Shown piece by piece: positions 5,069 to 30,351 of a stretch of DNA of 30,351 bases. Below the pieces are notes generated by a model. It saw only the letters and a program-made list of their open reading frames with translations. It was not told the DNA's origin and ran no database searches. Position 1 is the stretch's first letter; every line of letters starts with the position of its first letter. Source of the stretch: a virus; IMG/VR virus record IMGVR_UViG_3300030090_006672, positions 1-30,351 of that record. One strand, given 5' to 3'. The position numbers were made by a program, and so were the translations under genes.

Positions 5069-7503
5069 TAAATTCTACCTCCTTCGTATGCTGCGTAGGT
5101 TTGATCATGATAAACAATTAAATTTTCGCTGAGTTCTTGACCGTCTATATTTATTTGCGGTGGGTTGGCGCTTATCGCGCTCGCTACGGCTTGACCGAGT
5201 TTATTATAATCAATTGGTGTTTGTTCTCCTTGATTAATATTTTGCAAACTATTTGCAATTGATGAAGAGACCAGATTCGAAAATTTACCACTATTAAAAA
5301 AATCAGCTAAATTATTGACTGAATCTATAATATTTCCTTGCTGATTAGTATTTAATATTGCCTCACCAGAATTGACTCGTATAGGGACTTTGTCCCCGGT
5401 ATAGGATGAACCGCCTACTATTCCCCCCGTCGCAAATTTTTGGACTTTTTCCGATTTTGCAAATCTCTCTGCTCCTGCATGCGTTGCTATTCCCCCTGTT
5501 TCAAAACTGTATCTTCCCGGCATTCCGGCTCTTTTCGGTGCGCCACCATAATCGGCACTAAACGATGTATTAGCGACTTTATTACCTAGATTAAGTACTT
5601 CCATAAGTTTTGATACTGCTTTAATTAACGCCCCTTCTATTAAGTCTTTTAATATTTTCTTTTTTAGACTTTCAAAAGACTCCTCCATGTTGAAATTACC
5701 TTCAACTATTCTGTCCGCGACTTCTTCTGTATAGGTTTTTGCAAGCTGATTGATGTTCGCAATCATACGCGTTGTATTTTTTTCTTGAAGTCTTAAAATT
5801 TGTCCCTCTATCTCCATTCGTTTCGTTGCTGTTAATTCAGTCGTTTCTAGAACCTCGTATAGGGCTTCTATTTGTCTTTGCGTTTTTTCCTCCTCAAACT
5901 CAAACAAACGCTCTTTATCTGATGTTGCTCGTTTAATTTTTTCATCTGCCTGCTTGTCACGCAGTTCCCCTACGCGGTTGTCTATTGCAATTAATTCGGC
6001 TGAAGTTTTAGAACTCGTTTCTTTCACGTGTTGCCAATAATTAATTTCTCTTTCTATGGCACGAGTGTTAGCCTCATCGCGTAACTGATCGAGTTCTGAG
6101 ATACTTTGTTTTGCTTTGTCCACGTTCTGGGTGATATCTTCAATAGTTTCCGTTCTATTACTAATTCTATTTTCTGTGTTGTTCGTTGTATTATTATTTA
6201 AATTGTTATTTACATTATTGTCAGTATTATTACTTAAATTATTATTAGTATTATTATTAGTATTATTATTTACATTATTGTCAATGTTGTTGTCAGTGTT
6301 ATTTTCAATGTTATTTTCAATGTTGTTTTTTTGAGTCGTGGTTATAATATCTTCAATATTCTCAGGTTTTCTTTTATTTCTACTACGTATTTCTTGAATG
6401 TCTTTTGCTAGTTTTTCTTCAATTTTTATATATTCTTCGGATAACGATAATTGTTCAACCTTTTCTTTTTCTATTAAATCTTTTCGTTTGTTAAATAAAT
6501 TTAGTGCTCCTTTTTCGATCGCTGTGAACGCGTCTAACATACTGTCCGACATTTCAACGAATAATGCAGTATACGTTGATGGACGAAAAGGCGCAGTAAT
6601 TAACTTTGTTACTGTGACCGACCACTTTTCGGCTATTGCCTGCGTGTGCGCAAAGAAAATTTCTATTTTTTCAGGTGTTATTGACCCTAGAGCATTATTA
6701 AAGGCAGTTATAATGTTTTTTGCCATTGGCAGTAAAGATTTTCCAATTTCAGAACTAACTTGAAAAATATTATCTTTTAAATTGCTAAACTGCCCATTTA
6801 ATGTTGTGGATAGCCGACCCATCATACCGCCAAACATTCCTGTTTCAGAGGATAATCGTTTTAGAGCATCTTCCACATCTTTAAACCCAATTTGTCCTTT
6901 TGATGACATCTCTAGTACTTTAGCTGTTGATACATCGTACCCTTTTGCTAATTCATCGAGAATGGGAACACCGGCCTCCAGAAGCATATTAAGCTCTTCC
7001 ATAGATGCTTTACCTTTTACCTGAATTTTTCCAAAGGCACGCACTATAGTAGGTAATTTTTCTGTTCCAACACCTGCTGCGATATCTCCAAGACTCGTTA
7101 AAGTAGGGATTATATTTTCAGTATCTACACCGAACGCCAATAGCTGTTTAGACGACTCTATTAATCCAGGTAATTCAAAAGGTGTGTTAGCTGCAAAATC
7201 TGTTACCTCCTTAAGAACTTTTTGGCCTTTTTGGGCTGATTTCGTCATCGTCTCAAATTGGATTTGATAATCTTCCATTTTCCCTGCAGCTTTTAAAAAT
7301 GCAACGGACGTTGCCCCAACCGCAGCAGAAACTGCAAGTAACGGAATTTTTAAAGTAGATACTTTAGCTGCAAGCTTTACAATTTTTGAGCGCGTTTTAT
7401 CAAGGGCTAGCCCTAATTTTGAAGCACTATTTTTTACACTTTTAATGCCTTGGCTTGCTTTGTCTTGTAATGCTATTAATATCGAAACTTTTTCTTGTGC
7501 CAT
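5068..7503 (-). CDS. Tail tape measure protein
   Basis: The protein has 811 residues. It sets tail length, fills the tail lumen and usually helps DNA enter the cell. Residues about 50-75 are hydrophobic. Residues 75-245 carry the tape-measure core (P-F-E-L-P-G-L-I-E-S-S-K-Q-L-L-A-F-G-V and a glycine-rich M-F-G-G-M-M-G-R-L-S-T-T-L-N-G-Q-F), matching the TIGR01541/TP901-type N-terminal domain. A highly charged coiled coil (about 340-385) leads into an unusual Asn-rich period-4 repeat (about 388-446), then a second long coiled coil. The C-terminal part holds G-G-I-A-T-H-A-G and G-G-I-V-G-G-S-S-Y-T-G-D-K-V-P-I-R-V-N-S-G-E-A-I-L, a standard tape-measure ending. At about 0.15 nm per residue the tail would be near 120 nm. 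Its start overlaps the small membrane gene (TAATG). Confidence 0.93.
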   Translation of the reverse strand: MAQEKVSILIALQDKASQGIKSVKNSASKLGLALDKTRSKIVKLAAKVSTLKIPLLAVSAAVGATSVAFLKAAGKMEDYQIQFETMTKSAQKGQKVLKEVTDFAANTPFELPGLIESSKQLLAFGVDTENIIPTLTSLGDIAAGVGTEKLPTIVRAFGKIQVKGKASMEELNMLLEAGVPILDELAKGYDVSTAKVLEMSSKGQIGFKDVEDALKRLSSETGMFGGMMGRLSTTLNGQFSNLKDNIFQVSSEIGKSLLPMAKNIITAFNNALGSITPEKIEIFFAHTQAIAEKWSVTVTKLITAPFRPSTYTALFVEMSDSMLDAFTAIEKGALNLFNKRKDLIEKEKVEQLSLSEEYIKIEEKLAKDIQEIRSRNKRKPENIEDIITTTQKNNIENNIENNTDNNIDNNVNNNTNNNTNNNLSNNTDNNVNNNLNNNTTNNTENRISNRTETIEDITQNVDKAKQSISELDQLRDEANTRAIEREINYWQHVKETSSKTSAELIAIDNRVGELRDKQADEKIKRATSDKERLFEFEEEKTQRQIEALYEVLETTELTATKRMEIEGQILRLQEKNTTRMIANINQLAKTYTEEVADRIVEGNFNMEESFESLKKKILKDLIEGALIKAVSKLMEVLNLGNKVANTSFSADYGGAPKRAGMPGRYSFETGGIATHAGAERFAKSEKVQKFATGGIVGGSSYTGDKVPIRVNSGEAILNTNQQGNIIDSVNNLADFFNSGKFSNLVSSSIANSLQNINQGEQTPIDYNKLGQAVASAISANPPQINIDGQELSENLIVYHDQTYAAYEGGRI
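6170..6335 (-). repeat. 12-base minisatellite coding Asn-rich tetrapeptides in the tape measure
   Basis: About 15 tandem units of 12 bases encode the tetrapeptide pattern N-N-[I/V/L/T]-[E/D/N/S/T]. Thirteen units keep both Asn residues, and two at the 3' end are N-R. On the plus strand the units read as ATT-rich triplets. The block lies between two copies of an I-E-D-I-T-like peptide (P-E-N-I-E-D-I-I-T-T and T-E-T-I-E-D-I-T), so it looks like expansion from a small seed. Confidence 0.9.
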
Positions 7504-7655: not shown

Positions 7656-8672
7656 CTAATTTATTACTAGGGAATCATAATTTTGCTGTATCACCGAATC
7701 CCCGTTATCATCTGCTAAAGCCTGAAAGGTATAAACTATTTCATTCCCGTTGTTATTTGTCAGAGAGAAACCATCCGTATCTGTCGAAGTTTTGGGTAAT
7801 TGTATTGACCAAAGACGTTTTATCAGTGCATTATTTCCGTCTACACTATTTGTTTTTATTTTAACTGACGGGTTATTATTTGCTTTCACAGCAGTCAATA
7901 TCGTATTATTAGTTGTCTTGTACTGCGTTACAGATAATATGGTTTTCATGTCTGCAACATCTTGGGTGACACCACTAACGACGCCCGCTGAATTATAGAC
8001 TAATTTAATACCCGTTGTTTGTGTAATTGTGATTTCTTTATAGTCGTAGGCTGTTCCGTCTACCTCAAATATTAACTCCATACCCGGCACTATTGTCCTA
8101 AAATCGGCTGTAGAATTACCACTACCGTCTATAGGCTCGGTCCCTGAGTTTAAATTCGTTTCTTTACCGCCTATCCATTCAGTCGATACATTAATAATTG
8201 GAATTTCTGAACTTATCGTATACGTACGCGAGGTTAAAAATAAATCCTTTTGAAAAACGGTGTGATCATCATCACCCTTTTTATATTGTATATTTGCGGT
8301 CCAACCAAAATTGGGATTTTTATCAAAATTTTTATATGTCTTTGTTTTGATTGTTTGATTGTTTATCGTTGTATCGGCACCTGTCGTCCCAGTCATGTAA
8401 TTTTGGTTAATTTGATTCTCAAGACCGTCTTCAAAGGAAAGGTAATAATTAAAAGTACCCGCGCACGTTTCGACACCTGAAAAGACACTTGACGGTGCCA
8501 GCTTTCCAAACCCACTAATATTAAAATCTCGTGCTTTGTTGTTTTTTACGTCATAGGATAGTGGATAATTTGAGAATTTTTCTATATTCGTTCCGTCCGT
8601 ATTCGCCACAGTGTTGTGCGCTGTCTGCGGGCAATGACGCACATGAAAATCTTTTGCATCGTAAATACTCAT
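7656..8672 (-). CDS. Tail tube-like protein, paralogue of 8684-9721
   Basis: The protein has 338 residues. The N-terminal half aligns along its whole length with the next gene upstream. Shared features are M-[S/T]-I-Y-D-A at the start, Y-P-L-S-Y-[D/E]-V-K, F-x-[I/V]-x-G-F-G, the identical F-Q-K-D-L-F-L-T near residue 140, and P-[I/L]-I-x-V. The C-terminal halves have diverged. Such proteins resemble siphophage major tail proteins (a beta-sandwich tube domain plus a variable outer domain). The position just before the tape measure fits a tail protein, although tube genes are normally single. It may be a second tube subunit, a tube-decorating protein or a tail terminator-proximal ring. A good AAGGAG site precedes it. 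Confidence 0.65.
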   Translation of the reverse strand: MSIYDAKDFHVRHCPQTAHNTVANTDGTNIEKFSNYPLSYDVKNNKARDFNISGFGKLAPSSVFSGVETCAGTFNYYLSFEDGLENQINQNYMTGTTGADTTINNQTIKTKTYKNFDKNPNFGWTANIQYKKGDDDHTVFQKDLFLTSRTYTISSEIPIINVSTEWIGGKETNLNSGTEPIDGSGNSTADFRTIVPGMELIFEVDGTAYDYKEITITQTTGIKLVYNSAGVVSGVTQDVADMKTILSVTQYKTTNNTILTAVKANNNPSVKIKTNSVDGNNALIKRLWSIQLPKTSTDTDGFSLTNNNGNEIVYTFQALADDNGDSVIQQNYDSLVIN

Positions 8673-8683
8673 CTATTTTCTCC

Positions 8684-9721
8684 TTATAATGCGTCGTCGA
8701 CAGATTGATATAAAAAGCTCGTGGAACTTGTCCCATCAGTGTTGGCGACTGGGGTAACTGTAAAATCTACAGTTGGTACGCCATCCGACCCCATATTAAC
8801 AGCACTCATTGCTGTGATATTACATCTTGAAAAGTGCCAATTATATTTTAAATTAGCATCTGAAAATCCTGATGTTTCTATTTTAAAATCTACGTTTTCA
8901 CCATTTTTATAAATACTATGGAGTTGCCTTGTATATCGTGCAGCGGTGTCCCCATAATATGGAGTTGTGAATGTAAACTCACATAAGTTATCACTATGGT
9001 TTTGAGCTGTATTTGTTGGCGCTAATCCTGCCCCATAAAGTAAACTCGCTCCGGTCTTCATAGTAATTGTCATGTTTGTCCAATTTATAACTCCATCATC
9101 TACATTATTAGAATTTAATGTTAACGAAGTGTTTAATGATGAGGCTAACTCACCGTCACCAAGATTAACATTCCCAACCCCGCCTGCCTCATCAAGCGCA
9201 GTGTCCTCGCCTCCTATAAAACTATGAGTAACTGTAATTAATGGATTGTCCGTGTTAAATTGAATGGTTTTTTCAGTAAGAAATAAATCCTTTTGAAACA
9301 TTGTATGTTCTTGATCCCCATCTATATATTGTACGTGTGCGCACAGACCATACGACGGTAAAGTAGCAGGGTCTTTATAGGTTCTACCAACAAAAATGTT
9401 TTGTGCATTTTCGGTTCCTGCTGCCGATTGTGTGTAGTATTTATCCATTAAATAATAGTCGAGATTGTCAGTTCTTCCGTTTGCTGTATTCATTATTAAA
9501 TACGAAGTCATTGATCCAGCTGTCGTTTTTCGCCCTGCCAGTATTTCTTTTGCGTCACTTCCGAACCCTCTAACTTCGAATTCTCTGTTATAGCTCGTTT
9601 TCACTTCGTAGCTTAATGGCATATAATTGCTATATGCTGTGATTGGACCTACTTGGCGCTGATTAAAAGAGGTTTGTTGTTGAAAAGATATGGAAAATCT
9701 ACTTGCGTCGTAAATCGTCAT
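8684..9721 (-). CDS. Tail tube-like protein
   Basis: The protein has 345 residues and is a clear paralogue of the downstream 338-residue protein over residues 1 to about 190. It has the same opening (M-T-I-Y-D-A-S-R-F), S-N-Y-M-P-L-S-Y-E-V-K, E-F-E-V-R-G-F-G and F-Q-K-D-L-F-L-T. The last 150 residues form a separate beta-rich part (L-T-L-N-S-N-N-V-D-D-G-V and V-P-T-V-D-F-T-V-T-P-V-A-N), which resembles an Ig-like outer domain. One base separates it from the preceding gene. It is likely a structural tail protein. Which of the three tube-like genes makes the actual tube cannot be told from sequence. Confidence 0.65.
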   Translation of the reverse strand: MTIYDASRFSISFQQQTSFNQRQVGPITAYSNYMPLSYEVKTSYNREFEVRGFGSDAKEILAGRKTTAGSMTSYLIMNTANGRTDNLDYYLMDKYYTQSAAGTENAQNIFVGRTYKDPATLPSYGLCAHVQYIDGDQEHTMFQKDLFLTEKTIQFNTDNPLITVTHSFIGGEDTALDEAGGVGNVNLGDGELASSLNTSLTLNSNNVDDGVINWTNMTITMKTGASLLYGAGLAPTNTAQNHSDNLCEFTFTTPYYGDTAARYTRQLHSIYKNGENVDFKIETSGFSDANLKYNWHFSRCNITAMSAVNMGSDGVPTVDFTVTPVANTDGTSSTSFLYQSVDDAL

Positions 9722-14352: not shown

Positions 14353-15078
14353 CTATTTATTTATTTTTTCTAATATCATTCGTGCAGATATTTCAATTTT
14401 TGCTTTTTCGAACTCAGATAATCCAATCATAGGTTTCGATTTTTCATCTACTTGCAATTGTTTCTCTGTTTCTTTTTGCTTAACATCTTCCGCTACAAAT
14501 GATTTAGTTTCGTTTTCATCGACGCTAGTGATTAACGCGTCTTTATTCATGGGAACAGCTACGATTGACGTCTCAAATAGTTTTCCTTTAATTATCTGTT
14601 TTGTGTTTTTTGGGCCGTCTTCATATACCCAGATACCGCCAATTGAGACGGTATTAATAGCTCCGTTCTTCACCATTTCATAAACATGCTCTGTTTCAGG
14701 TGTTTTATATAGCTTTCCTGTGGCCAACCAACCTTTGTCGTCTTTTTTAAACTTATACCAATGCCCTACTACAGAAGAGACTGACTGGTCATGATCTTTC
14801 AACATAATCATGCCCTTTCTTCCCCTCATATCCTTGTCAAAAGCAGTAGGTGCTATAAAATCCCCGCCACGATCAGGGTTTTTAGCATTTCCAAACGTCA
14901 TAATATAAGCTTTTATAGTTAGATATTTAGCATCATCTTCAGCATTTTCTTTTACGTTAATCTCAAAACCTTTTTCATGCTCGATATAGGTATGAAATGC
15001 TTTTACATCATCTTTGTTTAGTTGATGCTCTTTTACATAGTCATACACTTTTCTTTCAAGTCGTTCATTTATATTCAT
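14353..15078 (-). CDS. Prohead protease, HK97 type (S78/U35)
   Basis: The protein has 241 residues from the start chosen here. It cleaves the capsid delta domain during head maturation. The catalytic residues line up as in HK97 gp4: His96 in M-L-K-D-H-D, Ser145 in N-T-V-S-I-G-G, and Glu169 in L-F-E-T-S-I-V-A-V-P. The upstream D-R-G-G-D-F-I-A-P-T-A-F motif is also typical. The frame stays open to 15339, but that would add 87 residues that only shadow the portal gene. The ATG at 15078 lies 2 bases after the portal stop, with GGAG upstream, and gives the usual family length. The C-terminal tail is charged and may be removed on maturation. Confidence 0.93.
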   Translation of the reverse strand: MNINERLERKVYDYVKEHQLNKDDVKAFHTYIEHEKGFEINVKENAEDDAKYLTIKAYIMTFGNAKNPDRGGDFIAPTAFDKDMRGRKGMIMLKDHDQSVSSVVGHWYKFKKDDKGWLATGKLYKTPETEHVYEMVKNGAINTVSIGGIWVYEDGPKNTKQIIKGKLFETSIVAVPMNKDALITSVDENETKSFVAEDVKQKETEKQLQVDEKSKPMIGLSEFEKAKIEISARMILEKINK

Positions 15079-15079
15079 C

Positions 15080-17176
15080 TTATGCGTCACTCCTTTTTTC
15101 AACCGGTACAATCGCGCCTGTGTGATTAGGTTTGAAATTCCATTGTGAACCAACCCTTTTTTTCCCGGACTCTCCTTGCGCCGCGCATTCCCATTTGGAA
15201 AGGTCAGGCTCCGTGCAACCAACAACCATTTCGTATTCGAAGCCTGCCTCTTTATAACCTTGTTGAACACCCGCGTCGTATCCGCGCCCCATCTCTGTTC
15301 TTGCAATTCGCGTTGCCTTCCATCTTGAATCTGGGTCAAGAAATTCTTGCTTAAACGTGTCCTCTATTTTTACCGTTGTTTCGGATATGCTTAACCCTTC
15401 ATCTAAAGCTGTTTTTATTATTGCCTTTAACTCATCCCGTCTTGTATTTAACGTTTCTTGTGCATATTTAATTTTTAACGCTTCAATTGCCAGTCTAAAT
15501 TCTGGATTTTTAAACGGTTGTGCAATATCGGTTGAATCTGGAGTTTTTCCGTATACTTTTTGTGTAATCGCCAAGGCTGAAACAGCAATTGACACAAATG
15601 CCGGTTCTATTTGCTTTTGAGCTTCATTGACCTCAGCATCAAAATCGAACATGTCATTTATATCTAATTCTTTTGTATTTGGTATTTTCATTGCTTTTTC
15701 AAGTCCATTGATTACTCTCTCTTTTAAACCCTTGTAATAAGACGTAATACTTTTTTCAAACCGTGAAATATGTTTCTTTTCTGACAGCGTCTCTCTTTTT
15801 AATTTTAAAAGACGTTGATGCCCTACACTCAAAGACTTGCTATGAGTGCACCCCCCTTCATGGGCATGCAACGCCTTCCCGTCTTCTACCTGTGTATTGA
15901 CGGGCGTATTTATTATTGATTCAGCCGTGGTCAAAGAAAACGGCAATGTATAGGTATCATTTAAAGGGTTTTCGGTATTTTCTCTATAGCCTAATTCTTC
16001 TCTAGCTTCATGGCGATTCATTGCGCCTATATCTACCAACGATTTAACTTCGTTTAATTTCCGTTCTGGAGTTTTATAATTATTATAACGAAACTTGAAC
16101 CTTATATCTGTCTTACGTAGTCTCGTATCTAGGTTAGAGACTTTTTTAATTATTTCTGTGATTATGTCGGCTACAATATCCCCGTACCCCGGTATCGTGT
16201 TTTCATGATAAAGCGATGACTGCTCAGTTAGACTTGATGCAAATTGACCGCTGGCATCATAAAAAATTGGGGGAACTCCAAAAGCAGAATAAATATTTTC
16301 ACGAACGTTTTTTAATTGTTCAAGATATTGAATTTCATGATTACTGGTCTTAAGCTCCTTTACCTGGTCGATACCTTTCATAATTAAAGGCTTGCCATTG
16401 TTTCTCTTACCAGAATATTGTTTCTTCAATGCTTTTATTGCAAAGTTGAACTCTTTATCTGAGATGTGTTCGTTTTTCATACTCATAAATATATTTGAAA
16501 CAATACCGTTATCGGACCAAGCTCTTGCAATTTGAACTAGTTTGCGCGCATTCTCAAAAACTTGTTTATTCTGAGCAATTACACCGCTGTAACTTACGGC
16601 ATGTATTAGCGATTGCATACCACCAATAACGTACAGATCTTTTAGGTCTTGCTTCGATATTACCTTAGATTTATCACCATAATTAATTTTAAGAGAGTCA
16701 ATATGCGAAAAATTATACTCACCCGCATCGTCAATTGTTCTACTATTTTCACCTTTTAGTGTTACGGTAGATGGGTTGAGAACGTTAATGTTTAATTCAT
16801 TTGAATTATCAAGATACATTAACTCTATAACGCACTTATCTAACAAGGTGTTTGAAGTTAAAATGCCAATTAAATTTTTTAATGAACCGGCATTTGTGTT
16901 ATTTAAAATACTATCTATTTCATTAGTAGTATTACTGTTAAGCTCATTTCCTTGACTATCTGTATAAAAATAATCAAGTTTAGAAACGTCTTTTACTATT
17001 GTTTGAATGGCGTGGCCAGTAAAAGGGGTTTGGTACATCGCTTTCATAAAGTCTTTTGATTCTGTGTACTCTTCATTAGAGCTAGCATCATTACCTTTAA
17101 GGAAATCGAGATTATTTAAAGCTTTTCTTTGTTCAAAAACATTTCTATTTAAGTATCTTTTAATTCTTTTTATCAT
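15080..17176 (-). CDS. Portal protein fused to a MuF-like minor head domain
   Basis: The protein has 698 residues from the start used here. The first two thirds are an HK97-type portal: F-T-G-H-A-I-Q-T-I-V near residue 45, the I-L-T-S-N-T-L-L-D region, G-V-P-P-I-F-Y-D (a strong portal signature) and L-R-K-T-D-I-R-F-K-F. The last 170 residues are a MuF / Mu gpF-like minor head domain with I-A-R-T-E-M-G-R-G-Y-D-A-G-V-Q-Q-G and a following W-x-C segment. In most phages these are two genes. The frame extends to 17215, but the ATG at 17176 overlaps the LamG-like gene's stop (ATGA) and starts with a basic helix as portals do. A His/Cys segment (H-A-H-E-G-G-C-T-H-S) lies in the linker. Confidence 0.92.
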   Translation of the reverse strand: MIKRIKRYLNRNVFEQRKALNNLDFLKGNDASSNEEYTESKDFMKAMYQTPFTGHAIQTIVKDVSKLDYFYTDSQGNELNSNTTNEIDSILNNTNAGSLKNLIGILTSNTLLDKCVIELMYLDNSNELNINVLNPSTVTLKGENSRTIDDAGEYNFSHIDSLKINYGDKSKVISKQDLKDLYVIGGMQSLIHAVSYSGVIAQNKQVFENARKLVQIARAWSDNGIVSNIFMSMKNEHISDKEFNFAIKALKKQYSGKRNNGKPLIMKGIDQVKELKTSNHEIQYLEQLKNVRENIYSAFGVPPIFYDASGQFASSLTEQSSLYHENTIPGYGDIVADIITEIIKKVSNLDTRLRKTDIRFKFRYNNYKTPERKLNEVKSLVDIGAMNRHEAREELGYRENTENPLNDTYTLPFSLTTAESIINTPVNTQVEDGKALHAHEGGCTHSKSLSVGHQRLLKLKRETLSEKKHISRFEKSITSYYKGLKERVINGLEKAMKIPNTKELDINDMFDFDAEVNEAQKQIEPAFVSIAVSALAITQKVYGKTPDSTDIAQPFKNPEFRLAIEALKIKYAQETLNTRRDELKAIIKTALDEGLSISETTVKIEDTFKQEFLDPDSRWKATRIARTEMGRGYDAGVQQGYKEAGFEYEMVVGCTEPDLSKWECAAQGESGKKRVGSQWNFKPNHTGAIVPVEKRSDA

Positions 17177-17991
17177 TCGTTGAAATATCCTTTTGGCTGT
17201 GACGTGACGGCCCATTTCTTAGAGAGATATTTATGCATTGCAACTTTTTGTTGATGGGAATGATACGTATCAAAAATCAACAATTGAAAAAAACAAAAAT
17301 CTTCATGCATATTGTCTGTGCCATCTTGTAACGACATAATCGACAACGTTGTTAAATCTTCTAGGTCTAAAATTACAGATAGATCCTCTGTGTTTCGATG
17401 CCGTCCATTTAAATAAACGGTTTGTATTCGGCCGTCTGCGTGGGCATCTGTGCGCAATGAACTAGAAAAAATCATCGGTTCGCCTTCTATATTATGAGGA
17501 GAAAAATTTCCTTCATATTGGTTCCCTTTAACCTTAATTTTTCTAGTGACTCCATCTGATTTGGTGGTTAATTGAGAACGTGTAAAGTTTTCAGGGTCAA
17601 ATTCGTTTAATATTTGTACTGACGAATCAGCGTTTGCAAGTTCGACTAATATCCCGTCAGCATTATCCCAGCCGGGGCTATTGTCATCAGCCCCTTTATT
17701 CACAGGTCGAAAAACATTATAAATAGTAAGCTCTGGCTTCGTTAATGAAGGGTTTATAGTTAATTTAAGAGGAGTGTAATCAACACCTACATCTTTAGAT
17801 ATTGCGAATTTTCCTGTTTGCGAATCAACCCTACACCCTGCAAGGTCAGTTACCGAATTTGATACCAACGCTGCGCCACTCTTTCTACACTTGAGCTGGC
17901 TTATCTTTCCATTATTTACACTTATATTTTCAGGTACACTAGTATCAAAATCGTATACTAGCCCCGGCAAACAGTTAGTATCGTATATCAT
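17173..17991 (-). CDS. LamG / concanavalin-like domain protein, virion-associated
   Basis: The protein has 272 residues. The C-terminal strands and helix (F-C-F-F-Q-L-L-I-F-D-T-Y-H-S-H-Q-Q-K-V-A, then Y-L-S-K-K-W-A-V) match the usual end of LamG/ConA-like domains in phage and bacterial proteins. There the last strand is followed by 'x-x-x-x-x-V-x-x-Y-L-x-x-K-W'. The middle is beta-rich, with T-I-Y-N-V-F-R-P-V and V-Y-L-N-G-R-H as core strands. It sits between the small virion-like protein and the portal, an unusual place for a carbohydrate-binding fold. It could decorate the head or bind host or mucus glycans. No catalytic site is seen. Confidence 0.68.
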   Translation of the reverse strand: MIYDTNCLPGLVYDFDTSVPENISVNNGKISQLKCRKSGAALVSNSVTDLAGCRVDSQTGKFAISKDVGVDYTPLKLTINPSLTKPELTIYNVFRPVNKGADDNSPGWDNADGILVELANADSSVQILNEFDPENFTRSQLTTKSDGVTRKIKVKGNQYEGNFSPHNIEGEPMIFSSSLRTDAHADGRIQTVYLNGRHRNTEDLSVILDLEDLTTLSIMSLQDGTDNMHEDFCFFQLLIFDTYHSHQQKVAMHKYLSKKWAVTSQPKGYFNE

Positions 17992-22525: not shown

Positions 22526-22544
22526 CTTTCACTTTATGTGTATT

Positions 22545-22555
22545 TGCATTATAAT
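22545..22555 (+). promoter_or_regulatory. -10 element of the leaderless HTH gene
   Basis: TATAAT at 22550-22555 is a perfect -10, preceded by TGCAT. The ATG of the HTH gene is at 22562, seven bases past the element, so the transcript would begin at or next to the start codon. No Shine-Dalgarno sequence is present. Confidence 0.6.
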
Positions 22556-22561
22556 AAAAGT

Positions 22562-22738
22562 ATGAAGCAGAGGTATATAAAAAAAGAATTTTTAAAATCC
22601 ATTAACGCTGTTTTGCAACAATACCCAGAAAGCACGAACGCGGACATCGCACGTCACTTAAATATGTGTAGAAGTGCGTTTCAAAAACGTCTTTGCTATC
22701 ATAATATAAAATGGAAAATAAAACGACGTGCTTACTAA
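22562..22738 (+). CDS. Small Fis-like helix-turn-helix regulator
   Basis: The protein has 58 residues and is strongly basic. Residues 23-49 (S-T-N-A-D-I-A-R-H-L-N-M-C-R-S-A-F-Q-K-R) look like the Fis/NtrC-type C-terminal HTH ('A-A-x-x-L-G-I-x-R-x-x-L-x-x-K-L'). The frame can be extended to a GTG at 22538, but that would place the start upstream of the -10, so ATG 22562 is preferred. It lies back to back with the late operon and shares a promoter region containing a palindrome. This suggests a switch protein for late genes, either repressing them in the lysogen or activating them. Its last 4 bases overlap the opposite gene at 22735. Confidence 0.72.
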   Translation: MKQRYIKKEFLKSINAVLQQYPESTNADIARHLNMCRSAFQKRLCYHNIKWKIKRRAY

Positions 22739-22917
22739 GTATTTAGTGTGATTTTATATTTTATTTCTTTTCTTATTGTACAGTTTCTTTTTAACCATTG
22801 CGTCAAAGATTGGTGGTTTTTACAACCTATTTTTTTAGCAATTGCTCTATATGAATAACCACTATTTAATAAATTTTCAATTTTTTCTATATCATATATC
22901 AATATTTCTCGTCCCAC
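22735..22917 (-). CDS. Small helix-turn-helix protein
   Basis: The protein has 60 residues. Residues 8-43 (D-I-E-K-I-E-N-L-L-N-S-G-Y-S-Y-R-A-I-A-K-K-I-G and then S-L-T-Q-W-L-K-R-N) are a clear homeodomain-like HTH, as in resolvase tails and transposase-type regulators. It starts with GTG at 22917, eight bases after AAGGAG. That start region is one copy of a 33-base direct repeat whose other copy ends the 67-residue membrane gene. It is last in the accessory cassette and meets the Fis-like gene tail to tail. Probably a regulator; the target is unknown. Confidence 0.7.
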   Translation of the reverse strand: MGREILIYDIEKIENLLNSGYSYRAIAKKIGCKNHQSLTQWLKRNCTIRKEIKYKITLNT

Positions 22918-22943
22918 TTTAAAAACTCCTTGTCAATTCTTTT
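22911..22943. repeat. Direct repeat R, copy 1 (copy 2 at 23691-23723)
   Basis: Thirty-three bases match the second copy with one change (A or G at the sixth base). Weaker similarity, 7 of 10, continues for ten bases to the left. Copy 1 lies downstream of the DUF4116-like gene and supplies the ribosome binding site and GTG of the HTH gene. Copy 2 encodes the last residues of the 67-residue membrane protein (I-D-K-E-F-L-K-R-D). Confidence 0.92.
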
Positions 22944-23652
22944 AAAAGATTTTTACAAGTATTTCTTTTGGCACAAATTTCAGAATACGTTTATACTCTT
23001 CAATGGCATGTGCTTCGTATTCGTATTCAAATTCAACCCTTTCAATCACAGATAAACACATTTCTAGATTTTTATGTTCTTCAGGTACAAATTCGAGGTT
23101 ATGATAATTGGCATTAACAGCGACCCAACACATTTCCTTAGTTTTATGTTCTTCAGGTACATATCTAAGATTAGGATTATGGTTTTCTTTAACCGAAAAT
23201 AAACAAATGTCCTTAGTTTTATACTCTTCAGGTACAAATTCGAGGGAGGATTCACAATCTTCGACCGCGTCCCGACACATATCTAGATTTTTATGTTCTT
23301 CAAGTACATACCGTAGGTTTTTTCCATATTTTTTGACAGCAGCAACACACATTTCCTTAGTTTTATGTTCTTCAGGTACATACTCAAGGGCGCGTCCCCA
23401 TGTTTCGACTGCGACCCTACACACCTCTGGAGTTTTATGTTTTTCCAACAAGTATCTAAAAACAAAGTCATATTTTTTAACCACAATTAAACATATTTCT
23501 TCAGTTTTATATTCTTCAGGCAGATCGTACTTAAATTTATCCCAAACTTCATCAGAAGTAGCATTTTTAAAAGTTATCAACCAATCTTCATATGTGTTAT
23601 TCTCTTTTAACCAATCTTTATATTTTTTCTTATTTATCCCTTCTTTATTCAT
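22942..23652 (-). CDS. DUF4116-like repeat protein
   Basis: The protein has 236 residues. After an N-terminal helical part (Y-K-D-W-L-K-E-N-N-T-Y-E-D-W) it consists of about seven repeats of 24 residues. Each reads like 'L-x-[Y/F]-V-P-E-E-H-K-[T/N]-x-x-M-C-x-x-A-V-x-x-x', the DUF4116 pattern. Each repeat should form a pair of helices, together making a solenoid, usually a protein-binding surface. It is the only such protein in the genome. DNA copies alternate between K-T-K-E-M-C and K-N-L-D-M-C types and are nearly identical, pointing to recent expansion. It lies in the accessory cassette behind a strong promoter, consistent with a host-modifying or defence role. The activity is not visible. 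Confidence 0.85.
   Translation of the reverse strand: MNKEGINKKKYKDWLKENNTYEDWLITFKNATSDEVWDKFKYDLPEEYKTEEICLIVVKKYDFVFRYLLEKHKTPEVCRVAVETWGRALEYVPEEHKTKEMCVAAVKKYGKNLRYVLEEHKNLDMCRDAVEDCESSLEFVPEEYKTKDICLFSVKENHNPNLRYVPEEHKTKEMCWVAVNANYHNLEFVPEEHKNLEMCLSVIERVEFEYEYEAHAIEEYKRILKFVPKEILVKIF
22990..23530 (-). repeat. 72-base tandem repeats coding the DUF4116-like units
   Basis: About seven units of 72 bases (one of 78) share blocks such as TTTTATGTTCTTCAGGTACA on the plus strand. Two unit types, with TAGATTTTTATGTTCTTC or TTAGTTTTATGTTCTTC, alternate roughly every second or third unit, which suggests duplication of blocks larger than one unit. Confidence 0.8.
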
Positions 23653-23673
23653 TGTTTAATACCTTTGTTTGTT
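23649..23673. repeat. Direct repeat L, copy 1 (copy 2 at 23882-23906)
   Basis: Twenty-five bases match copy 2 with one change. On the minus strand each copy carries the ribosome binding site and start codon (AAAGG, then TTAAACAATG) of the gene that follows: the DUF4116-like gene for copy 1, the 67-residue membrane gene for copy 2. Confidence 0.9.
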
Positions 23674-23681
23674 ATTTATTA

Positions 23682-23885
23682 TTATTTCGAGTCCCGCTTT
23701 AAAAACTCCTTGTCAATTCTTTTGCTTTCTCTTATTTCACGCCGTTTTAAAATGATGAATAGTAGCAACATAAATATAGAAAAAATAAAATAACCAAAAT
23801 AAATATATAGAGCTGTTTTAACAGAAATAAGATTAATTTCTGTTAATATAAAAAGTATTATTATAGTACAAGTATGTTTCTTCAT
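23682..23885 (-). CDS. 67-residue two-helix membrane protein
   Basis: The protein has 67 residues. Helix one is about 6-15 (C-T-I-I-I-L-F-I-L-T) and could be part of a signal anchor. Helix two is clear at about 25-47 (A-L-Y-I-Y-F-G-Y-F-I-F-S-I-F-M-L-L-L-F-I). A basic, charged tail follows (K-R-R-E-I-R-E-S-K-R-I-D-K). The start is in repeat L copy 2 and the end is in repeat R copy 2. It is the first gene after the promoter at 23919-23947, so it is likely well expressed, also in the lysogen. A small membrane partner for the DUF4116-like protein, or an exclusion protein, is possible. No family was recognised. Confidence 0.68.
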   Translation of the reverse strand: MKKHTCTIIILFILTEINLISVKTALYIYFGYFIFSIFMLLLFIILKRREIRESKRIDKEFLKRDSK

Positions 23886-23918
23886 TGTTTAATTCCTTTG
23901 TTTGTTTGTTATGTATTA

Positions 23919-23947
23919 ATAATAAAACCATGTATTGCCACTGTCAA
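23919..23947 (-). promoter_or_regulatory. Consensus promoter of the accessory cassette
   Basis: On the minus strand TTGACA (23947-23942) and TATTAT (23924-23919) are 17 bases apart, a near-perfect sigma-70-type promoter. The TGA in TTGACA is the integrase stop codon. Transcription would start near 23912, ahead of AAAGG and the ATG at 23885. The 58-base gap 23886-23943 is also a possible phage attachment site. Confidence 0.75.
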
Positions 23948-25464
23948 CATTTAATTATATAAGTAAACTTTTTTATAATCTCTTTCGATATAATAAATAT
24001 ATTTTTTTTGTTGCGTATTAACTCAAGTTTGGGGAGCCAAACATTACTTAACGCGGAACACTTAAGCGTAATCTCTGTTTTATTCTCACCAATTTCAATT
24101 TTATCTACAAATTTATCAATTTCTTTCTTTGTAATATTTTCACAATAGTCTTTTAATAATTTATCAACGACTGTTATAGATTCATTCAATTCTTTAATTG
24201 TAAATGCACTTTTAAACTTTGTAATTTGATTTAATCTTTGCTCATAAATTTCTTTATCGTTTCTTATTTCTATTAATTTATCATCAAGCTCATCCGTGCC
24301 GATACGAGCAATTGCCGAAATAATGTTAGATATTTGTTTTTCAGCAGTTTTTATTTTTTTTATTAATATCGACTTTTCATTGCTATTTTCTTTATTATAT
24401 TGTTTTGCCTCTCTATATAAAGTTGTAGCTATACTTGTTACCATTGTTTTTTTGCATACCAGCCCTTTTATTTTTTTTTGGACTTTGTTTTCGATTTCGC
24501 TTTTATTTACTGGCGCCTGATTACACATTTTCTTTCTTGCTTTTATGCATTGGTAATATTGATATAACTTACCCCTTGTCTTGCTGCTTATCCCTGTAAC
24601 TTTAGACCCACAACTACAGCTTATTAATCCTGATAAAATATAATTATTATTTCGTACCCTGTTTTTATTCCCTACCCTGCTTTTTAATAAGGTTTGAGCT
24701 TTATCAAAAATTTCTTTTTCTATTATAGGTTTATGAGTATTTTCATATAGTTGATTAGAAAAGTATATATGCCCTAAATAGGTACTATTTGAGATAATTG
24801 TGCGAATAGACATAGTTGTAAACATAGAGCCTCTTTTTGTTTTGTACCCCTTATTATTGAGTTCCTGCGCAATTAATGCCAACCCTTTACCTTTGTTTAC
24901 ATAAGTATCAAATATCGAGATAATGATTAAGCTCTCTTCAAGGCATGGTTCCAACTTCTTTGTTTCTTTTCCTCTGATATACCCTAACGGAGCCATGCCG
25001 TTTTGCCAAACCCCCGATTTGATTGATTGTAACATCCCCGCCCGGGCTCTAATTCCGATACGTTTACTCTCGCTTTCTGCAAGGCCATTATAAACAGCCT
25101 CCATCAGGATTGATTCAGGTCCTGTACCTATAGATTCGGTTACACTTTTAATTTCACATTTATATTTGTTAAACTCGGCCTTTAACATGTAATAGTTAGA
25201 AATATTTCGGCCAAATCTGTCCAATTTCCAGACAATACAATAGTCTATATTTTTATATTTTTTTATATATGAGTACATTTCTTGAAACGCTTCACGCGCA
25301 GCATTTGTTCCAGTTTTTGCTTTATCCTCGTATATACAAACTATTTCCATGTCATTGTCATCGCAAAATTTTAAACATGCTTCTTTTTGCAACTCAATGG
25401 AGAACCCTTTTGATTGCTTTTCATCAGAAAACCGTGTATAAATTATCGCTTTTTTATATTTCAT
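23944..25464 (-). CDS. int: Large serine recombinase, phage integrase
   Basis: The protein has 506 residues. It integrates the phage genome by single-strand exchange through a Ser-DNA link. The resolvase catalytic domain (about 1-150) has R11 and the nucleophile S13 in Y-T-R-F-S-D, and the L-D-R-F-G-R-N motif at 81-87. The recombinase domain follows (about 155-265, N-G-M-A-P-L-G-Y and G-L-A-L-I-A-Q-E-L-N-N-K-G). A zinc ribbon has C283, C285, C306 and C314. A coiled-coil part (about 350-430) resembles the one used for attP/attB synapsis in large serine integrases. The length is normal for the family. It sits next to the repressor region and before the accessory cassette. Confidence 0.96.
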   Translation of the reverse strand: MKYKKAIIYTRFSDEKQSKGFSIELQKEACLKFCDDNDMEIVCIYEDKAKTGTNAAREAFQEMYSYIKKYKNIDYCIVWKLDRFGRNISNYYMLKAEFNKYKCEIKSVTESIGTGPESILMEAVYNGLAESESKRIGIRARAGMLQSIKSGVWQNGMAPLGYIRGKETKKLEPCLEESLIIISIFDTYVNKGKGLALIAQELNNKGYKTKRGSMFTTMSIRTIISNSTYLGHIYFSNQLYENTHKPIIEKEIFDKAQTLLKSRVGNKNRVRNNNYILSGLISCSCGSKVTGISSKTRGKLYQYYQCIKARKKMCNQAPVNKSEIENKVQKKIKGLVCKKTMVTSIATTLYREAKQYNKENSNEKSILIKKIKTAEKQISNIISAIARIGTDELDDKLIEIRNDKEIYEQRLNQITKFKSAFTIKELNESITVVDKLLKDYCENITKKEIDKFVDKIEIGENKTEITLKCSALSNVWLPKLELIRNKKNIFIISKEIIKKFTYIIKC

Positions 25465-27118: not shown

Positions 27119-27824
27119 AGAATATGACATTGTTCAGCAAATAAACGATTTGGATGCGGATCTTGTCTGTCTAGAGCTAAAAGTTAAGGAGTTACAAAAC
27201 AATATTATTGCTTTAAAAAAGTCTATAAATATGCAAGACACTTTTCGTCATATTTCTAATACAAAAACGAGTTTATGGGAGGTAAAAATAAATATGTTAA
27301 ACGATATCAATATAAATGAAAGAGAATTATCCAATGAATTTGAAATGATAAATGAGATTGTTTATATGGACGAAATGCCAAATGAATTTAGCTATGATAG
27401 TGCCAAGAGCTATATTTCAGAAATTGGTAGTTTTCGTGATTTGTCTATTTTTCATCGTTGGTTAGATTCTAATCATTATTTAGGTGATGGCGTTGAGCAA
27501 AGTTGGCTATACCAGGACATGGAAAACCATTACGACTTATTAAGCAATATAAGTGTGATAAAAGAATCAATTTTAGGTGAAGAAACCTTTATTTCTACGA
27601 GAAAATTAAGAACGAAAATATTTGTAATTAACAATAAAGAAACTTTAGATATTATACAAAAATACATTTTACACACTTTGCCCAAAATCGATCACCAGCT
27701 AATCACTGTGTACATCGAAGAAAGAAAACGCACAATAGACGAAGAGAATGAGTTAATGAAGCTTGATAGACCTATTTCGTGTGAAGATGCAATTAAAACA
27801 TCTGTGAAAGAGGGGTTATTTTAA
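27111..27824 (+). CDS. Coiled-coil early protein of unknown function
   Basis: The protein has 237 residues. Residues 5-50 form a predicted coiled coil (V-Q-Q-I-N-D-L-D-A-D-L-V and L-E-L-K-V-K-E-L-Q-N-N-I-I). The rest is acidic and helical, with an aromatic segment F-H-R-W-L-D-S-N-H-Y-L-G and a final charged helix. It directly precedes the Erf-family gene, overlapping by one base, the place where phages often encode recombination or replication helpers. I cannot name it. Confidence 0.65.
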   Translation: MTREYDIVQQINDLDADLVCLELKVKELQNNIIALKKSINMQDTFRHISNTKTSLWEVKINMLNDININERELSNEFEMINEIVYMDEMPNEFSYDSAKSYISEIGSFRDLSIFHRWLDSNHYLGDGVEQSWLYQDMENHYDLLSNISVIKESILGEETFISTRKLRTKIFVINNKETLDIIQKYILHTLPKIDHQLITVYIEERKRTIDEENELMKLDRPISCEDAIKTSVKEGLF

Positions 27825-28306
27825 TGGATAATAATTTTTATATTAAAGTAGTCAAAATACAATCGGAGTTATCCGTACCGAAAGCCCAAAGAAATTCTTT
27901 TGGTAAATACAACTATCGTAGTTGCGAGGACATTTTAGCTAAATTAAAACCTTTGTTGGAAAAATATGAACTCGTCCAAAATATAACAGATGAAATTCTT
28001 CTTATAGGCGACCGTTATTATGTTAAAGCAACAGTTCGCTTATCAAATGGGAAAGAAATTATTGAAAGCCATGGCTATGCCAGAGAAGCATCTGAAAAAA
28101 AGGGTATGGACTTTGCTCAATTAACTGGGTCATGTAGTTCTTATGCTAGAAAATATGCATTAAACGGACTATACGGAATAGATGATACAAAAGATCAGGA
28201 TACCGACGAATTCGTACGTCAATCTCAATATAAAAAGCCTTACAGTTCTAATAAAACTTATAACAACGAGCCGAATTATAACGATTCTGCTTTTTTTCAA
28301 AGTTAA
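27824..28306 (+). CDS. erf: Erf-family single-strand annealing protein
   Basis: The protein has 160 residues. It anneals complementary single strands during phage recombination and circularisation. The family markers are P-K-A-Q-R-N-S-F-G-K-Y-N-Y-R-S-C-E-D-I at the start, V-K-A-T-V-R-L in the middle, and the hallmark L-T-G-S-C-S-S-Y-A-R-K-Y-A-L-N-G-L-Y-G-I followed by D-D-T-K-D-Q-D. The C-terminal 35 residues are polar and Tyr/Asn-rich, a flexible tail. It shares one base with the gene before it and is followed by SSB, its usual partner. No exonuclease partner is seen. Confidence 0.95.
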   Translation: MDNNFYIKVVKIQSELSVPKAQRNSFGKYNYRSCEDILAKLKPLLEKYELVQNITDEILLIGDRYYVKATVRLSNGKEIIESHGYAREASEKKGMDFAQLTGSCSSYARKYALNGLYGIDDTKDQDTDEFVRQSQYKKPYSSNKTYNNEPNYNDSAFFQS

Positions 28307-30049: not shown

Positions 30050-30262
30050 ATGAATAGTGAAAAGAAAAAAGAACTAATTCAAGAATCACAATTACTAAAT
30101 GAAAAGTTATTTCAATTAATAAGATTATCTGAGGATATTTCTATACACGAAACGTTTTTAAAGTCTCACGAGGACACGTTAAAAGCTCTTAAAAAGGAAA
30201 AATTAGAAGTTTGGCTATCCTACAAGGAAAAAAAGAGAATATTCGATGCGTTGTACAAATAA
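30050..30262 (+). CDS. Small coiled-coil early protein
   Basis: The protein has 70 residues and is nearly all charged helix (K-K-K-E-L-I-Q-E-S-Q-L-L-N-E-K-L-F-Q-L-I and L-K-A-L-K-K-E-K-L-E-V-W). It starts directly after the initiator stop and its end overlaps the VRR-NUC start by 17 bases. Position between initiator and nuclease suggests a small partner for one of them. No family recognised. Confidence 0.68.
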   Translation: MNSEKKKELIQESQLLNEKLFQLIRLSEDISIHETFLKSHEDTLKALKKEKLEVWLSYKEKKRIFDALYK

Positions 30263-30351
30263 ACATGTTCTAGAAAAAGACATACAGCGTGGAATAATGG
30301 ACTTGCTGTGTATATATGGGATTAATTTCTGGCGACAAAATCAGGGAAATA
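30246..30351 (+). CDS. VRR-NUC nuclease, 5' part (continues at 1-372)
   Basis: ATG at 30246 opens the frame that continues across the circular junction into 1-372. The first residues, M-R-C-T-N-K-H-V-L-E-K-D-I-Q-R-G-I, contain the N-terminal helix normally seen in VRR-NUC proteins, which is missing if the internal Met at 46 is used. It starts 17 bases inside the end of the small coiled-coil gene, with AAAGAGAAT upstream. Confidence 0.88.
   Translation, partial: MRCTNKHVLEKDIQRGIMDLLCIYGINFWRQNQGN
30252..30351. repeat. Terminal overlap: right copy
   Basis: This copy corresponds to 1-100 with T at 30350 in place of C at 99. See the entry for the left copy. Confidence 0.93.

Follow-up and report, generated by a model that had tools for sequence, protein, structure and literature searches.

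Repeated gene flanks beside a phage serine integrase look like the leftover ends of one rearranged accessory slot

Directly downstream of the serine integrase gene of a temperate phage, two accessory genes are accompanied by two pairs of short direct repeats, L and R, which from their sequences look like what remains of the ends of a single slot after duplication or unequal crossing-over; mosaicism of this kind is known from phages. We favor, with moderate confidence, the reading that the region is an accessory operon in which the two-gene state resulted from one unequal or illegitimate crossover between slot copies. The region, an ordinary accessory one, bears the well-preserved scar of a rearrangement, and a new gene-swapping mechanism is not established by it. 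With the truncated start of the next gene retained in the scar, the region offers a footprint of an integrase-side slot growing from one gene to two.

The window, an IMG/VR virus record of 30,351 nt, carries a 98-bp direct terminal repeat (1–98 and 30252–30349), from which the last two bases of the record depart. Such a repeat makes it probable that the record represents a complete, circular molecule of approximately 30.25 kb. Its phage gene set, assigned by family, includes a serine integrase, a Cro/C1-type HTH protein, ERF, SSB, terminase, portal, and capsid. The integrase is a large serine recombinase encoded on the minus strand at 23944–25464 (PF00239, PF07508, and PF13408; phrog_95, E 2.7e-98), and the ERF single-strand-annealing recombinase is encoded on the plus strand at 27824–28306 (PF04404, E 1.3e-36). 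On the minus strand, the integrase gene is followed by a promoter-like site, L2, the gene of a 67-aa protein containing R2, L1, a DUF4116 gene, R1, and an HTH gene. The two accessory genes thus sit between modules, with the integrase on one side and phage genes on the other, and both match no core-phage family. The initial annotation had placed a promoter at the integrase stop, and a sigma-70-type sequence match, TTGACA-17-TATTAT, is indeed present on the minus strand at 23919–23947, overlapping the integrase stop codon and agreeing with 11 of the 12 consensus positions. Of the region's 29 promoter-like sites it is the best, and the genes could be transcribed from it like any accessory ("moron") operon; in the reading favored here they probably are. 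The only terminator-like site, at 22655–22637, is located 80 bases past the HTH gene and does not rise above shuffle expectation, and none was found between the accessory genes or immediately downstream of the HTH gene.

The first accessory gene (23682–23885, minus strand) encodes a predicted membrane protein of 67 aa, for which no family was found above the Pfam cut-off and none in PHROGs. The second (22942–23652, minus strand) encodes a DUF4116 repeat protein of 236 aa (Pfam PF13475, E 9.5e-29), in which a repeat of mostly 72 nt (24 residues) occurs seven times. An AlphaFold model of the latter is all-helical (pLDDT 80.7, pTM 0.59), and a fold search with this model returned nothing significant, the matches being to generic helical repeats at low TM-scores. 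In a published model built from contacts, the DUF4116 family forms an alpha-solenoid (PMC8078820). As a guess, the protein might be a protein-binding lysogenic conversion factor.

L, of 25 nt, is present in two copies on the minus strand, L2 (AACAAACAAAGGAATTAAACAATGA, 23906–23882) and L1 (AACAAACAAAGGTATTAAACAATGA, 23673–23649), which differ at one of 25 positions. The two copies of R, of 33 nt and also on the minus strand, are R2 (AAAAGAATTGACAAGGAGTTTTTAAAGCGGGAC, 23723–23691) and R1 (22943–22911), with one mismatch in 33. Across the whole window, the third-best match to L has 7 mismatches and R has no further match beyond its two copies. When at most one mismatch is allowed, the longest direct repeat is 33 nt, compared with a maximum of 19 nt and a mean of 14 in 100 dinucleotide shuffles of 22700–24000. 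The initial description of L and R as each occurring twice with one mismatch, in this order around these reading frames, is therefore accurate, and the repeats are far above chance. The aligned homology extends to approximately 50 columns at R and 42 at L, longer than the 33 and 25 originally delimited. The longest exact run is 27 nt for R, whose copies are 780 nt apart, and 13 nt for L, whose copies are 233 nt apart.

R can be traced to the HTH gene, which encodes a 60-aa HTH_38 protein on the minus strand (22735–22917; PF13936, 29 bits against a cut-off of 27). R1 overlaps both the DUF4116 stop codon and the HTH gene start, and it holds the ribosome-binding site AAGGAG, an 8-nt spacer, the GTG start, and the first HTH codons. 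In R2, GTG is replaced by GCG, and the repeat codes for the C-terminus of the 67-aa protein; no HTH gene lies behind it, and L1 comes next. Because the HTH leader and codons match, the start is GCG, and no HTH gene follows, the best reading of R2 is that it was left over from a duplication of the HTH front. Judged by these matches, R is the beginning of the HTH gene rather than an independent frame element, and the case that the initial annotation itself had named as refuting, an ordinary duplication of coding ends within a single lineage, fits R well. R2 together with the adjoining downstream bases supplies the last 13 codons of the 67-aa gene, reading KRIDKEFLKRDSK up to the stop. If the frame of this gene is carried into R1, it is open and then stops at once (KRIDKEFLKWDEKY, followed by a stop), as expected if the 67-aa gene once overlapped the HTH start, although this point is weak on its own. 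The proposal that each gene is framed by L and R thus holds for the positions of L and of R1; R2 lies inside the 67-aa coding sequence and does not follow the gene. On the plus strand, a small HTH-like gene (22538–22738) converges on the HTH gene of the operon and overlaps its last 4 bases.

The junction between R2 and L1 (23674–23690, minus strand) is AT-rich. For approximately 17 nt beyond the R2 originally delimited, homology to HTH codons 3–8 persists (12 of 17 positions) and runs into the homology upstream of L, so that the two meet between R2 and L1. This layout is as a tandem duplication or an unequal crossover would leave it. The interiors of the two units show no similarity, with a best alignment score of 21 against a shuffle median of 20 and a maximum of 29, and the idea that they are diverged copies of one gene was rejected on this basis. 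Because the flanks are 96–97% identical while the interiors are unrelated, we infer that a single slot probably held two different genes in the past. The comparison points to two gene contents joined in one genome or to a replacement after duplication, being compatible with both. Direct repeats on either side of L1 and the DUF4116 gene would also result if this segment had been inserted with R duplicated as its target, but such an origin is very improbable, given that no transposase is found in the region (ORFs and Pfam), the match between L1 and L2 is left unexplained, and a target duplication of 33–50 nt would, as a matter of general knowledge, be unusually long. As for transposon or integron features more broadly, besides the lack of a transposase, the AT-rich inverted repeats found in the region do not enclose the units.

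L, in contrast to R, is weaker evidence for descent because similar leaders occur in unrelated DNA and within this phage. L2 and L1 comprise the Shine-Dalgarno leader, with the element AAAGG, and the ATG of the 67-aa and DUF4116 genes, respectively. A scan of IMG/VR viral contigs for L returned four contigs, two of which carry matches to the 21-base L pattern at gene starts and are otherwise unrelated; the other two match by chance, within a single coding frame of tape-measure-like character. L-like leaders are also present in sampled bacterial genomes, and another pair of leaders in this phage (1142–1168 and 11054–11080) matches at 89% over 27 nt. The similarity of L taken alone could be leader convergence. 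Upstream of L, the match goes on once one AAAC unit is gapped, and this extension favors descent. With R being an HTH front, R2 a truncated copy of it, and L a leader form shared with unrelated DNA, there is no support for regarding L and R as elements made for framing genes. They could instead be regulatory leaders kept alike for a common function such as translation control, as L and R1 hold the ribosome-binding sites of three consecutive genes and start-associated repeats have been described in Cluster K mycobacteriophages (PMC3203893). We consider this improbable, because R2 is not at a gene start, having GCG inside a coding sequence, and neither L nor R recurs at the other genes of the phage.

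In the crossover that we favor, each ancestral copy of the slot would have consisted of a leader (L), an accessory gene, and the HTH front (R). One unequal or illegitimate crossover, in an AT-rich stretch, would have connected two breakpoints, one shortly after the HTH gene begins in the first copy and one immediately upstream of L in the other, giving the two-gene state; microhomology alone may have been enough for this originating junction. Two phages that had different genes in the slot are the probable sources of the copies; alternatively, the slot was truly duplicated in tandem and a gene was replaced afterwards. The ERF recombinase of the phage is a possible agent of the rearrangement. 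Minimal efficient pairing requires 23–27 bp for Red-beta and 31–34 bp for RecA, and the Erf protein of phage D3 recombined diverged DNA as efficiently as Red-beta did (PMC3945230). With an exact run of 27 nt, an exchange between the R copies by the phage ERF enzyme is plausible by analogy, whereas an exchange between the L copies is not, its 13-nt run being too short for pairing by Red-beta or RecA. Recombination between the R copies should thus remove the DUF4116 gene more easily than recombination between the L copies removes the 67-aa gene, and the scar makes exact predictions for both, namely variants shorter by 780 bp (R with R) or 233 bp (L with L).

The same features could be taken as an active exchange slot, in which L and R serve as flanks for repeated addition or swapping of genes by homologous recombination. 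Unrelated interiors within conserved flanks, the nearly exact fit of the DUF4116 ORF between an ATG within L1 and a stop within R1, and the 27-nt exact run of R together with an ERF recombinase would suit such a slot. We regard it as unlikely, because the L run is below the published pairing lengths (PMC3945230), R is already accounted for as the HTH gene front, and only one locus is seen, with no relatives carrying other contents found in viral contigs. Still less likely is the stronger form, a phage slot that stacks and swaps ORF-sized accessory units through the leader of the unit and the front of a resident regulator gene, possibly driven by ERF. From the swap slot of the initial annotation, what stands is an integrase-adjacent operon with a promoter match, conserved flanks, and unrelated interiors; what is not supported is its status as a new system.

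The IMG/VR viral contigs were scanned with the integrase, terminase, capsid, DUF4116, and HTH proteins as well as the L and R patterns, and no close relative was found. Relatives of the integrase reach at most approximately 33% identity; the terminase and capsid have none in the viral contigs and only distant ones elsewhere. R patterns of 23 and 20 nt gave zero matches in these contigs. Two HTH matches (L013 and L014) were rejected as relatives, representing an unrelated phage with a common HTH motif and without L or R. A blastn search of the region against phages yielded only chance AT-rich matches. Against 398 genomes of one phylum, a weak test because the host may belong to another, an 80-nt query spanning R2 and L1 yielded only short leader-like or AT-rich matches, and the DUF4116 query, run without a positive control, yielded no match.

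Phage morons, or lysogenic conversion genes, are accessory genes that lie between phage modules with a promoter and a terminator of their own and that some relatives carry and others lack. The present operon resembles them in its position between modules beside the integrase and in its own promoter match, but it differs in its tandem units with repeated flanks and in having no terminator-like site between the genes or right after the HTH gene. At module joins of lambdoid phages, unrelated genes that can be exchanged are bordered by short conserved boundary sequences, at which recombination could take place. Short conserved flanks around unrelated genes are likewise seen here, except that a single genome contains both copies and that R is the beginning of a neighboring gene. 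T4-type phages reportedly carry mobile regulatory cassettes, the subject of Arbiol et al. in 2010; the idea of a repeated regulatory sequence around swapped genes is similar, but no repeated promoter or stem-loop is present here. The start-associated sequences of Cluster K mycobacteriophages, repeated a few bases before start codons (PMC3203893), share with L the location just before start codons, but L has only two copies, R2 is off a gene start, and there is no phage-wide recurrence.

Elsewhere in the window, two neighboring genes at 7656–8672 and 8684–9721 are paralogous, with 33% identity over 254 alignment columns, and represent a further tandem duplication in this phage, one of much greater age. 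An Asn-rich low-complexity stretch with 12-nt repeats lies in the middle of the tape-measure-like gene (6116–6334). The listed ORFs of a protease-like gene (14353–15339) and the portal gene (15080–17215) overlap by 260 bases in different frames, and the true start of the protease-like gene may be later than listed.
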